Origin: Roseovarius sp. S88
GTDB taxonomy: Bacteria > Pseudomonadota > Alphaproteobacteria > Rhodobacterales > Rhodobacteraceae
NCBI RefSeq assembly: GCF_037023735.1
Contig: NZ_CP146069.1
Location: forward strand, 2,087,501-2,151,500
Reading direction: 5' to 3'
Length of the DNA stretch: 64,000 nt
How positions within the stretch are numbered: the first letter of the stretch is position 1; each line of letters begins with the position of its first letter. The position numbers were made by a program, and so were the translations under genes. The notes beneath the pieces are model-generated. The model had not been told where the DNA came from, ran no database searches, and was given only the letters and a program-made list of their open reading frames with translations. Below, piece by piece: positions 8,691 to 25,124 of this stretch.

Positions 8691-8897
8691 ATGGCTGTCC
8701 AACAGAACAAAGTATCGAAATCGCGTCGCAACAACCGTCGGGCGCATGACGCTCTGGTCGCGGCCAACCCGAATGAATGCCCGAACTGTGGTGAGCTCAA
8801 GCGCCCACATCACGTTTGCGCAGCGTGCGGTCACTACGCAGACCGCGAAATTGTCTCGATGGTTGACGAGGTCGATCTGGAAGACGACGCAGCCTAA
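8691..8897 (+). CDS. rpmF: 50S ribosomal protein L32
   Basis: A 68-residue ribosomal protein with the basic N-terminus [20 protein letters not shown] typical of L32. Four cysteines at residues 30, 33, 43 and 46 (CPNC and CAAC) form the zinc-binding form of the protein. An acidic tail ([10 protein letters not shown]) follows. It lies between the DUF177 gene and plsX, the conserved arrangement that couples ribosome and phospholipid/fatty-acid synthesis genes. The start at 8691 gives the canonical first residues. Confidence 0.97.
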
Positions 8898-8918
8898 CGA
8901 CGCTGAGGAGCGCGTCCG

Positions 8919-10025
8919 ATGAGTTCATCCACGGACCCTTCCAAAGCGCAGAACGCACGCGTTCTCATTTCGGTTGACGCCATGGGCGGGGATCTTGGAC
9001 CGGCGGCTGTTGTCGCCGGTATTTCTTATTCTGCCAAAATAAATCCTGACATCGGCTTTATTCTGCACGGTGATGCGGATCAGCTCAAACCCTTGGTGGC
9101 CAAACGCAAGACGCTGACAGGCCGGTGCGAGATTCGCGACGCCAAAGACGTCATCCAGATGGAAGACAAGCCGAGCCAGGCCATTCGGAATGGCAAAAAC
9201 AGCTCAATGTGGTCAGCGATTGAGTGTGTGCGCAACGGTGAGGCCTCCGTTTGTGTCTCATGCGGGAACACCGGAGCGCTTTTGCTGATGTCCGTGGTGC
9301 GGCTGCGAAAACTTCCGGGCATCTATCGCCCTGCTATTGCTGTGCTTTGGCCCTCTGCCAACCCGCAAGGGTTCAACATCATGCTCGACGGTGGCGCAGA
9401 TATTCGCGCCGATGCCAAGGACCTGATGCAATACGCGCTGATGGGCACGTCCTATGCCCGAAACGGGTTTGGGTTGGATAAACCTCGCGTTGGCCTGCTC
9501 AATGTTGGGACTGAAGAGCACAAGGGCCGCGCCGAATTGAAAGAAGCGCATGACCTAATCGCCAGCAATGCCAGAATCGGGGATTTCGAGTTTATCGGTT
9601 TTGTTGAAGGGCGTGATTTACCGGGCACTGTGTGCGACGTGATAGTCACAGACGGGTTTACTGGCAACGTGGCGCTCAAGACCGGCGAAGGCACGGCCAA
9701 GATGATCAGTGAGCTATTGCGCGACGCATTCGCCTACACGCCGCTGTCGCGGTTGGCTTCGCTTCTGGCACTGACTTCGTTGAGACGTCTGCGCAAACGG
9801 ATTGATCCGCGCCGGGCCAATGGCGGGGTTTTTCTTGGTCTGAACGGAACGGTGGTCAAATCGCATGGCGCAGCGGATGCAACGGGTGTCTCCGCCGCCG
9901 TCAAGCTGGCCTTTGATCTCGCACAGAAGGGATTCAGCGAAAAACTGGCCGCACGGGTTGCATCCGCCTCGCTGACTGAACAGGATGGCACAACCGACGA
10001 CTCAGACAACGGTGACCCTGAATGA
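8919..10025 (+). CDS. plsX: Phosphate acyltransferase PlsX
   Basis: A 368-residue peripheral membrane enzyme that makes acyl-phosphate from acyl-ACP, the donor for PlsY in phosphatidic acid synthesis. The N-terminal SVDAMGGDLGP block, the MLDGGAD segment and VCDVIVTDGFTGNVALKT near the C-terminal third are PlsX hallmarks. Length is normal. The gene follows rpmF by 21 bases and overlaps fabH through an ATGA junction, indicating translational coupling. Confidence 0.96.
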   Translation: MSSSTDPSKAQNARVLISVDAMGGDLGPAAVVAGISYSAKINPDIGFILHGDADQLKPLVAKRKTLTGRCEIRDAKDVIQMEDKPSQAIRNGKNSSMWSAIECVRNGEASVCVSCGNTGALLLMSVVRLRKLPGIYRPAIAVLWPSANPQGFNIMLDGGADIRADAKDLMQYALMGTSYARNGFGLDKPRVGLLNVGTEEHKGRAELKEAHDLIASNARIGDFEFIGFVEGRDLPGTVCDVIVTDGFTGNVALKTGEGTAKMISELLRDAFAYTPLSRLASLLALTSLRRLRKRIDPRRANGGVFLGLNGTVVKSHGAADATGVSAAVKLAFDLAQKGFSEKLAARVASASLTEQDGTTDDSDNGDPE

Positions 10026-22559: not shown

Positions 22560-23465
22560 CTATTCCGCCGGGACGAGGGTTTTGTCTGCTACCGGTCGAA
22601 TGCGTTCCCAAATCAGCCAACCGCCTGCTGAAATTATGATAAACGCCCCAAGATAGGTATGCGCGGCAGGCGTTTCAGCAAAGAACGCCCAGCCAATGGC
22701 AACCATCCAAATGAATTGTAAGTTCATCAGTGGCGTCACCACATAGGCTGGCAAAATTCGCAGTGCGGCGACCAAAACCCAGCGCGCACCAAAGAGCAGC
22801 AAAGCATAGATCGCCGCGAGAGCCACGTCGATGCTTGACATCGGCTTGAACACAAAAGGCAAAGCAAGTGCCATGACCCCCATCAGGGCCAGGTTCGGAT
22901 AAAAGACCTGCGCGAGCAGATTGGTGTCGCGCCGTCCGATAAACCGAGACGTAACCATCGAAATGGACCCCAGAATGACGGCCGACAGTGCGATAAGATG
23001 ACCCAATCCCATTCCGTGCACACCTTCCGGGAATACGCACGCCACGCCCACCACGCCCAGTCCAAGTGCCATCCATGTCTGACTGCGCACGGGCTCTCCC
23101 AGCACCGGGCCGGACAGAATTGCGGTGAACAACGGGATCAGCGCGATGAACAGGAAGACATCGGCAAACGGCAATAGCCGAAACGCGTGGAAAAAGGCCA
23201 ATGTACCCAGCACGGTGGCCACCACACGAACGGTCATAGCCCTGGGGCATTGCGTCGACATGCAGCGCCTCTGACCGCATGTGTCGCGGTTGGCCAACAA
23301 ACTGAAAAGGGCCACCAATCCGCCGGATATGGCAAAGAGCTGTGGTGCGGAATAGGATTGCGCAAAGCCTTTGGTGATGGCGTCCGCGCCGGTGATTAAC
23401 AGAGAGTAGAGAGCTGTTAGCCCGACGCCGGACAAAACAAGAGCCGAAGAGACGTGTCGGATCAT
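22560..23465 (-). CDS. DMT/EamA-family permease, third gene of the repeat-protein operon
   Basis: A 301-residue permease of the drug/metabolite transporter superfamily with about ten membrane segments in two EamA halves. The first half contains LFAISGGLVALFSLL and FFHAFRLLPFADVFLFIALIPLF; the second has ILPAYVVTPLMNLQFIWMVA. Between TM2 and TM3 an unusual loop carries two cysteines (DTCGQRRCMSTQ) plus a third. Its ATG overlaps the stop of the upstream uncharacterised gene (ATGA at 23462-23465), so the two are translationally coupled. The coupling suggests it exports or imports something linked to the upstream proteins, but the substrate is unknown. Confidence 0.82.
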   Translation of the reverse strand: MIRHVSSALVLSGVGLTALYSLLITGADAITKGFAQSYSAPQLFAISGGLVALFSLLANRDTCGQRRCMSTQCPRAMTVRVVATVLGTLAFFHAFRLLPFADVFLFIALIPLFTAILSGPVLGEPVRSQTWMALGLGVVGVACVFPEGVHGMGLGHLIALSAVILGSISMVTSRFIGRRDTNLLAQVFYPNLALMGVMALALPFVFKPMSSIDVALAAIYALLLFGARWVLVAALRILPAYVVTPLMNLQFIWMVAIGWAFFAETPAAHTYLGAFIIISAGGWLIWERIRPVADKTLVPAE

Positions 23466-24535
23466 ACTAGAGCTCCAGGGGCGCTGGCACGGGCAAATCC
23501 ATTGAAGAACGATTGAAAATCAACCGCTTGTTCGGCAGCGTTGATTACCTCTCGCGCCATGTCCGACAGAGTTTCATCCAGTTTCGGGCGCATCGCGGAC
23601 CAGTCCGGGTGCCGAACCCCGTCCAGTGTGTACATCTGCTCGGACAGCTCTCGCAGCGGGGCAACCTCATGCCGTGGCGCGGTAAAGCTGATAGGGCCTT
23701 CTGGGATTTGCGCCCCAAATCCACCCTGCCCTGACAGGGCCAGATGCCAGTTCAGCATGAAATACGGATGGTACGCATCTGACCGCCAGCCCATATCATC
23801 TTCGCGGATTGCGAAGTAACGGGTTTGCTCTGCCAGCCAACTGTCCCAGCTTTCCGGTGGGCTGACCCCGGCAAAGCGAAGTGCAATGCAGATCTCGGCG
23901 AGCAGATCGATGTTCAGCTCAAGATAGGCCAACGTACCTGCAAAGGTCAGACTTTGGATCGACTTTTCATCAAGACAGGGATCCTTCAGTCCGTAGTCGG
24001 ACAGGTAGAACACGATGTGGGTCAGCTCATAAGCTGCCTTCTTATTGGGTATCGCAAAGGTTTCCGACCGTGTCGTGAAGTCACGCAACCGGTCATCCAG
24101 CCCAAGGTCGCGAGACACGGGGTCTACCCCGCGGCGCAGACACAAACGCCGGGCTTCGGCGCGCTGCAGGTCCGACAGTTCCGCCCCCACAAGCCCTTGC
24201 TTCGCAACCCAGTCCACCGCGGCCTCAGCGCGGTTTCCTGGCAGGCCAAGGTCCTCAAGATCGAGGCACATCGACAGCAAAAACCGATAATATTGCGGGA
24301 AAAAGCTGAGGCGCTTTTCGATGGTGTCGTAGAAATTGTTGAAGGGCGCAAGCGAGGTCAGCGGCAACTCAAAGCCGCAGCTTTGGTAGATGTTGAGCAG
24401 TTCCGCGTTTTCCTTGAGCCAGAACACATCCTGTTCCGGACGGCGTTGCGACACAAACCGCTCCAGCAAAGCCGCCTGACGCAGCTCTGCCGTGGATTGG
24501 CGGAACGGAAAATCGAAGTGAACGACGGATCCCAT
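23462..24535 (-). CDS. Uncharacterised helical protein, central gene of the repeat-protein operon
   Basis: A 357-residue soluble protein with no motif of a known enzyme class. It looks almost entirely alpha-helical. Two stretches stand out as possible functional sites: YELTHIVFYLSDYG (residues 169-182) and YHPYFMLNWH (255-264), each with a conserved-looking histidine. It may be the Rhodobacterales family catalogued as DUF6902 (from memory, unverified), and the LTH-FY-D-G pattern recalls helical proteins found beside some natural-product genes. The ATG at 24535 lies 45 bases after the repeat-protein stop, and its stop overlaps the permease start. Its place between a repeat-peptide gene and a transporter suggests it acts on or with the repeat protein; that is inference. 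Confidence 0.7.
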   Translation of the reverse strand: MGSVVHFDFPFRQSTAELRQAALLERFVSQRRPEQDVFWLKENAELLNIYQSCGFELPLTSLAPFNNFYDTIEKRLSFFPQYYRFLLSMCLDLEDLGLPGNRAEAAVDWVAKQGLVGAELSDLQRAEARRLCLRRGVDPVSRDLGLDDRLRDFTTRSETFAIPNKKAAYELTHIVFYLSDYGLKDPCLDEKSIQSLTFAGTLAYLELNIDLLAEICIALRFAGVSPPESWDSWLAEQTRYFAIREDDMGWRSDAYHPYFMLNWHLALSGQGGFGAQIPEGPISFTAPRHEVAPLRELSEQMYTLDGVRHPDWSAMRPKLDETLSDMAREVINAAEQAVDFQSFFNGFARASAPGALV

Positions 24536-24580
24536 GAATGATACCTTCCTTTACAACCAGATTCCGTTCCGCTGAGCCAT

Positions 24581-24934
24581 TTACAGGCTCGAAGTGAAGG
24601 CGTGAACAGCGTCACCTTCAGTGGTCTCGGAGGCGCGGACGGGCCCGAGGCTGGAAGTGAAAAGCTCTACTGCGTCGCCTTCCGTGGTGTCAGATGCACG
24701 AACCGGACCAAGGCTAGAGGTGAAGAGTTCCACCGCATCGCCGTCCATATCTGAGGATGTGACAGGTGTCAGCGACGATGTGAACGCCTCTGTGCCCTGC
24801 CCAACATACGCGTCTGCTTCTGCGACAGGACCCAATGAAGAAGTGAATGCCTCAACTGCGGAGCCGTCAAACATATCGGCGCTGTTGTCTTGTGTTGTTT
24901 TGTACGAAATCTGTTCTTTACGAAGTGCTACCAT
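24581..24934 (-). CDS. Repeat protein with five FTSSL units, first gene of the operon
   Basis: A 117-residue protein with a 26-residue leader-like N-terminus (MVALRKEQISYK, then TTQDNSADMFDGSA) and five units built on (E/H)(A/L)FTSSL(G/T)PV. FTSSL occurs at residues 30-34, 51-55, 71-75, 92-96 and 113-117, a period of 20-21, and the protein ends exactly on the last L. Linkers are acidic and Thr/Ser-rich (ASDTTEGDAV). There is no cysteine, signal peptide or membrane segment. The ATG at 24934 follows a strong AAGGAG site, better than an in-frame start at 25003. It may correspond to the family DUF6749 (from memory, unverified). A multi-core peptide precursor, a scaffold or a secreted repeat protein are all possible. 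Confidence 0.8.
   Translation of the reverse strand: MVALRKEQISYKTTQDNSADMFDGSAVEAFTSSLGPVAEADAYVGQGTEAFTSSLTPVTSSDMDGDAVELFTSSLGPVRASDTTEGDAVELFTSSLGPVRASETTEGDAVHAFTSSL
24584..24856 (-). repeat. Five-copy 60-63-base coding repeat (FTSSL units)
   Basis: This stretch codes the five repeated units of the operon's first gene. Units three and four (residues 68-87 and 89-108) are the same in 19 of 20 residues, yet their codons differ at 15 of 20 positions, 14 of them synonymous. The repeats are therefore old at DNA level and conserved as peptide, not a recent slippage product. Confidence 0.85.
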
Positions 24935-25009: not shown

Positions 25010-25026
25010 AACAACCTTAGGTTGTT
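25010..25026. promoter_or_regulatory. Inverted repeat, candidate operator of the repeat-protein operon
   Basis: AACAACC (25010-25016) and GGTTGTT (25020-25026) form a perfect 7-bp inverted repeat around TTA. It lies about 76 bases upstream of the repeat-protein ATG, near where a minus-strand -35 element would fall, and about 245 bases from xthA. A dimeric repressor or activator site is inferred from symmetry and position. Confidence 0.45.
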
Positions 25027-25124
25027 ATCCACATAGCCAACGACCCTGTGGATGAATGGGGCAGACCATTGGCGATCAGATACTTGCTGTTCCAGATTTC
25101 CGGGAGAAAATAATTTTATCCACA
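25025..25124. promoter_or_regulatory. Cluster of DnaA-box-like sites
   Basis: Two exact copies of the DnaA box TTATCCACA lie at 25025-25033 and 25116-25124. A reverse-orientation site with one mismatch (TGTGGATGA) is at 25047-25055. An A/T-rich patch (GAAAATAATTTTATCC) flanks the third site. Two exact 9-mers within 100 bases are unlikely by chance in 64 kb. They lie in the 336-base non-coding stretch 24935-25270 between the repeat-protein operon and xthA. DnaA-dependent regulation or a replication-related site is possible; dnaA and the usual origin neighbours are not in the window. Confidence 0.45.

Follow-up and report, generated by a model that had tools for sequence, protein, structure and literature searches.

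A candidate RiPP-like peptide operon of Rhodobacterales with uniform short cores, a DUF6902 protein and an EamA permease

Many Rhodobacterales carry a small operon that, in our judgement, is likely to encode a peptide system of some kind. In the 64,000-nucleotide stretch of Roseovarius sp. S88 DNA analysed here (the window), its three genes follow one another on the minus strand: a 117-aa repeat protein (24581..24934), the putative multi-core precursor; a 357-aa DUF6902 protein (23462..24535), the proposed core-modifying enzyme, peptide epimerase-like; and a 301-aa EamA (DMT) permease (22560..23465; PF00892, E 9.2e-14), the proposed exporter, whose ATG overlaps the TGA of the DUF6902 gene by 4 bases; the first-pass annotation of this DNA had noted the overlap. 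The flanking genes are what we take to be xthA-like and erpA-like genes, homologues of which were located in relatives. The same annotation had suggested the layout of a multi-core precursor, an acting protein and an exporter, and this suggestion gains support from the adjacency of the genes, a repeat number of 3–20 in related precursors and the membership of the middle protein in a superfamily with a reported peptide epimerase.

The precursor opens with the motif MVALRK (24917..24934, minus strand), possibly a short recognition sequence; a similar start was found by pattern search in 63 of 77 related precursors. Five FTSSL cores then follow on the same strand, at residues 30–34 (24833..24847), 51–55 (24770..24784), 71–75 (24710..24724), 92–96 (24647..24661) and 113–117 (24584..24598), the last of these being the end of the protein, and 72 of the 77 relatives likewise end on a core-like unit. 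Coordinates and unit spacing (21, 20, 21 and 21 residues) bear out the original description of five FTSSL units with a period of 20–21 residues and a protein ending on the final L. Units take the form G-x(5)-hydrophobic anchor-core, mostly then Ala/Gly-Pro, with the G at −6 (97%; perhaps also part of a recognition sequence) and an anchor F common to nearly all of them. The 77 precursors hold 16 modal cores in 3–20 copies each (median 7), which is the variation in repeat number that had been sought among homologues.

Within one protein, 99–100% of unit pairs agree at positions +1 to +4, and this identity also holds among 1403 unit pairs with diverged spacers, whereas identity between proteins at +1, +3 and +4 is 0.36–0.49. 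Differences between paired units at +1 to +4 comprise 4519 synonymous and 19 nonsynonymous changes, against 2176 synonymous and 11965 nonsynonymous changes in the spacers. The five cores of the window follow suit, with 9 identical, 31 synonymous and 0 nonsynonymous comparisons among 40 codon comparisons at +1 to +4; together with recurrence of the layout in 80/80 loci (best 80 of 305 relatives), this marks the FTSSL repeat as more than chance. We rejected chance, gene conversion and recent duplication as origins of the uniform cores, because synonymous codons vary freely within them, including among the unit pairs whose spacers have diverged. On the evidence of these codons, selection on amino acids keeps many copies of one 4–5-residue sequence, as in a multi-core peptide precursor.

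Departures from uniformity are few. With a first unit finder, which accepted units only at 3–4 matches to the modal sequence and might overlook deviant ones, 21 of 579 units were off the modal core, 18 of them at the anchor alone (F to Y, M or V), so that the four residues following the anchor may by themselves make up the product. With a less biased finder, 540 of 556 units were modal; 11 of the 16 others lay outside the core run (in the leader or before the start), leaving 5 real deviant cores in three of the 77 precursors (L091, L103 and L108), among which L108 combines FTSGS cores with a second type, FTTSA, present three times. Outside the 77-precursor set, L059 has one FTFSM, and L039, L042, L044 and L049 have mixed core types; the L042 and L044 precursors carry FSSGS together with FSTSC. 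Mapped onto a DUF6902 tree (77 rows), core types require 21 changes, compared with a mean of 49.5 when shuffled. Every core differs between L098 (FTSGS) and L099 (FSSGS), which have nearly identical DUF6902 proteins (branch lengths 0.013 and 0.027), and the DNA of their last cores differs by a single A-to-T change. These near-identical systems look as if all cores had been changed together, like a switched pherotype. The expectation that cores would lack cysteine holds for the window and fails for some relatives, whose cores include FCSGL, SSTC and GCYT.

The name DUF6749, which the first-pass annotation had also raised, was not borne out: it was not among Pfam matches up to E 1 for the window protein or seven relatives, in a search whose HMMER filters may hide matches to repeats. 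Pfam matches of relatives' repeat proteins to MPH2 (L085) and Herpes_UL35 (L123), just over or over cut-off, were taken as low-complexity artefacts.

Among 292 genomes of the order, DUF6902 was matched in 81 (80 over cut-off), spanning 35 of 112 genera, and the window repeat protein in 62; all 62 repeat-positive genomes fall among the 81 DUF6902-positive genomes and none among the 211 DUF6902-negative ones (lists compared by eye). A scan for relatives at one genome per species found 305, of which the best 80 were kept, the best of all being Roseovarius. In these best 80 of 305, a repeat gene directly precedes DUF6902 in 80/80 loci (77 by script, plus three missed by the script's pattern), and EamA directly follows in 74/80; in the six loci where EamA does not adjoin, one has no room left in the sequence. 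The proposed check of synteny across Rhodobacterales thus found the trio adjacent in most close relatives. The cassette has xthA within 3 kb before it in 75/80 and erpA within 3 kb behind it in 76/80 of the same loci, and in 14 of 20 DUF6902-negative genomes erpA and xthA lie 55–153 bases apart, like an empty site.

Linkage is looser in a divergent set of 20 loci, made up of the 19 DUF6902-positive genomes missed by the window repeat protein and a broken copy in G204 (L179): a repeat gene was present in 15/20 and EamA was matched beside DUF6902 in 9/20, with no repeat gene seen in L164, L170, L174, L179 and L180. Cores from divergent loci include STSSF, FVSAS, SSTC, TTSC, TSVA, PTSN and AQSFSAP, and L178 has two cores that are unlike each other. 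In L179 the DUF6902 gene is fragmented over several frames, and the system there seems to be decaying. Beyond the class, but within the same phylum, genome G675 encodes DUF6902 (E 2.3e-102) and EamA, along with a precursor of 76 residues in which GCYT occurs three times. A plasmid search with the DUF6902 protein gave no match.

The middle protein is correctly named DUF6902 (PF21843; hmmscan E 1.5e-145, 485 bits against a cut-off of 27) and also exceeds the cut-off for DUF6895 (PF21836; E 6e-19, 68.9 against 23.8 bits). Profile comparison of 53 DUF6902 sequences with three DUF6895 proteins by hhalign gave E 2.9e-7, and true DUF6895 proteins share only 17–21% identity with the window protein. 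Seven residues (H173, F176, G182, D210, E214, D253 and H256) are invariant in 11 aligned DUF6902/DUF6895 proteins. The five with acid/base side chains, encoded on the minus strand at 24017..24019 (His173), 23906..23908 (Asp210), 23894..23896 (Glu214), 23777..23779 (Asp253) and 23768..23770 (His256), are invariant in the 53 DUF6902 sequences too. The protein is predicted to be almost all-helical, with two short strands (mean pLDDT 92.1). The first-pass annotation had seen no known enzyme motif here; the protein does have both a Pfam family and a relative with reported enzyme activity. Shi et al. (ACS Catal. 2026, cited in PMC13352647) report in their title a lasso-peptide epimerase of the DUF6895 family; DUF6895 is not discussed in the parts of the citing review (PMC13352647) drawn on here. 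Going by that title, the superfamily includes a peptide epimerase, and a match to a known, unrelated enzyme family, which would have spoken against the original proposal, did not turn up.

True DUF6895 genes are themselves directly preceded by small precursor-like ORFs with similar leaders in L138 (two ORFs; DUF6895 gene at 8743-9741 of that locus), L139 and L181 to L184, with GPWYAY-, GPWFVL- or GRWYVY-like stretches in L138, L139 and L182; in L185 to L188 such an ORF is less clear. The DUF6895 genes of L182, L183 and L184, which are Streptomyces and Kitasatospora plasmids, are annotated as hypothetical, and the annotation of L183 and L184 also places a type I polyketide synthase gene in the vicinity. 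In L142, a DUF6895-like protein is encoded beside a putative sugar-nucleotide gene, presumably a UTP-glucose-1-phosphate uridylyltransferase. Two genomes of one genus encode a fusion of DUF6895 with a D-aminopeptidase domain (PF04951, Peptidase_M55; L146 184-1872, E 8.9e-41; L147 1387-3075, E 4e-43), an independent hint at D-residues.

Upstream of the precursor, the window contains two exact matches on the plus strand to the DnaA box TTATCCACA, one ~100 bases (25025..25033) and one ~190 bases (25116..25124) before its start, the consensus being as given in the part of PMC8203912 used here. The two lie 91 bases apart and are the only boxes so close among 25 in the 3.64-Mb genome. At least two boxes also occurred in 4 of 100 window shuffles, and the motif is neither rarer nor commoner genome-wide than a reversed control (25 vs 20), so the window's own boxes carry little weight and the case rests on recurrence in relatives. 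There, of the 72 loci with sufficient sequence, 47 have exact boxes within 400 bases ahead of the precursor, 71 boxes in all, whereas the background across these loci is 0.001 per 400 bases; the counts come from relatives that are not independent. With up to one mismatch, 54 of the 72 loci have at least one box and 42 at least two, with a recurrent layout at −186 and −110 in the same orientation; 18 have none even at one mismatch. Control of xthA was rejected as an explanation, with an exact box within 600 bases ahead of xthA in 0/20 DUF6902-negative genomes, as was a part in the replication origin, there being no clear GC-skew switch at the operon (a weak test, in the window only). DnaA may bind here and control the operon. 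Before the precursor and beside the nearer box there is also a terminator-like hairpin with a T-run (window 25010-25026), which may be chance (6 in the region compared with 4.1 in shuffles).

Gene order, selected core uniformity, homology, invariant residues and DnaA boxes can be read directly from the DNA, and from them we infer modification and its reaction, cleavage, export, function and DnaA control, in the form of a RiPP-like system with uniform tiny cores, epimerisation by DUF6902, release by general proteases and export by EamA, a proposal to which we give an even chance of being right. One repeat protein would carry many copies of a single 4–5-residue core, and DUF6902 would act on every copy. 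Because of the homology to DUF6895, the likeliest reaction would be L to D epimerisation at one residue, through acid/base chemistry of His173, Asp210, Glu214, Asp253 and His256. Housekeeping proteases would release the cores by cutting, most likely close to the hydrophobic anchor and ahead of Ala/Gly-Pro (there is no protease gene among the three operon genes), EamA or another permease would export the short peptide, and its production may be timed by DnaA.

The same multi-core arrangement could serve a different DUF6902 chemistry, such as dehydration, ester or ring formation on Ser, Thr or Cys, or binding and cleavage only, and we regard this as a credible minority view: Ser and Thr, and in some cases Cys, are abundant in the cores, true DUF6895 proteins show low identity, and one paper title deals with one DUF6895 member. 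However, the putative DUF6895 precursor cores GPWYAY and GPWFVL lack Ser, Thr and Cys, so that a reaction common to both families could do without these side chains, in keeping with epimerisation, and the fusion of DUF6895 with a D-aminopeptidase domain points the same way.

It is possible, though we think it unlikely, that the repeat protein is instead a scaffold or regulator that releases no peptide, its motifs serving as identical docking sites for one partner, be it DUF6902 or another protein. Like motifs at a spacing of 20–21 residues, the acidity of the repeat proteins (median pI 4.05, n=74) and the presence of DUF6902 in every repeat-positive genome of the sample would all suit such a role. 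Docking motifs, however, usually tolerate similar residues, whereas none of the 77 proteins mixes L, M and I at the final position of its units while the anchor F gives way to Y, M or V in 18 units; the adjoining permease and the tie to a peptide-modifying superfamily also argue against a scaffold. The conserved xthA–erpA position of the cassette in most of the closest loci could by itself have held together a low-complexity or structural repeat protein and unrelated neighbours, but this is highly improbable given the same trio in a genome of another class (G675), selection acting on core residues and the presence of DUF6902 in 62/62 repeat-positive genomes.

Returning to the RiPP-like proposal, the operon has in common with RiPPs a ribosomal precursor with its core sequence under selection and a dedicated enzyme gene linked to that precursor, in 80/80 loci (best 80 of 305) and 62/62 genomes, and more weakly in divergent loci (15/20). 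Over cut-off, only DUF6902/DUF6895 and EamA were matched by the three operon proteins. Cyanobactin precursors also hold several cores, each between recognition sequences, but there the cores are usually dissimilar and depend on PatA/PatG-type proteases, whereas the cores here are uniform and no PatA/PatG-type protease was found among the three operon proteins. Closer in form are animal neuropeptide prohormones and yeast alpha-factor, with many identical short peptides and diverged spacers in each precursor; these differ in being eukaryotic and secreted, with dibasic cleavage sites, from the bacterial, acidic proteins described here. The F-x-S-x-x C-terminus is shared with what we understand TIGR04268 to describe, FxSxx-COOH proteins, but none of the three operon genes is a radical SAM gene, and TIGR04268 (NCBIfam) did not match the repeat protein of the window or of four relatives. 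Lanthipeptide features were likewise missing, with no LanB, LanC, LanM or LanKC match among the three operon proteins and no Cys in the window's cores.

The DUF6895 lasso-peptide system, as known from that one title, is alike in its superfamily (by Pfam and profile comparison) and, in L138, L139 and L181 to L184, in a precursor-like gene directly before the enzyme gene; the present operon differs in its multi-copy 4–5-residue cores after a very short N-terminal motif and in its EamA permease, and has no lasso B protease or C cyclase among its three proteins. MslH, described in the sections of PMC10406935 consulted as a lasso-peptide epimerase with a calcineurin-like fold and Ca(II), shares with our proposal the idea of acid/base peptide epimerisation by His/Asp pairs, in contrast to the almost all-helical fold predicted for DUF6902. 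Sequence searches against defence, phage and solved-structure sets returned nothing useful. A literature search on DUF6749 and DUF6902 found no mention of either, and one on DUF6895 found a single paper. For core strings, almost every paper among the matches listed concerned skin grafts, and none of the literature matches listed described this system.

Cores that are uniform within a precursor yet vary from one species to another suggest one exact product per strain, for example a signal or a narrow antagonist. The usual multi-core precursor has variable cores; uniformity is the reverse and points to a product whose exact identity matters. More speculatively, and with considerable doubt on our part, the repeat protein could be a bacterial prohormone that yields numerous copies of a strain-specific D-residue tetra- or pentapeptide. 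An all-helical enzyme family would epimerise this peptide, which would be exported to act as a signal, and expression would be coupled to the replication initiator DnaA. If so, the core would be a readable pherotype that can be switched in all copies together, as between L098 and L099. Judging by the DnaA boxes, production of the peptide may be linked to replication. A RiPP-like system of this kind would be a common peptide family whose cores are unusually short and uniform. Its compact enzyme, in which no radical SAM match was found, may introduce D-residues into ordinary peptides. As the core can be read from the genome, prediction of the product would be direct.
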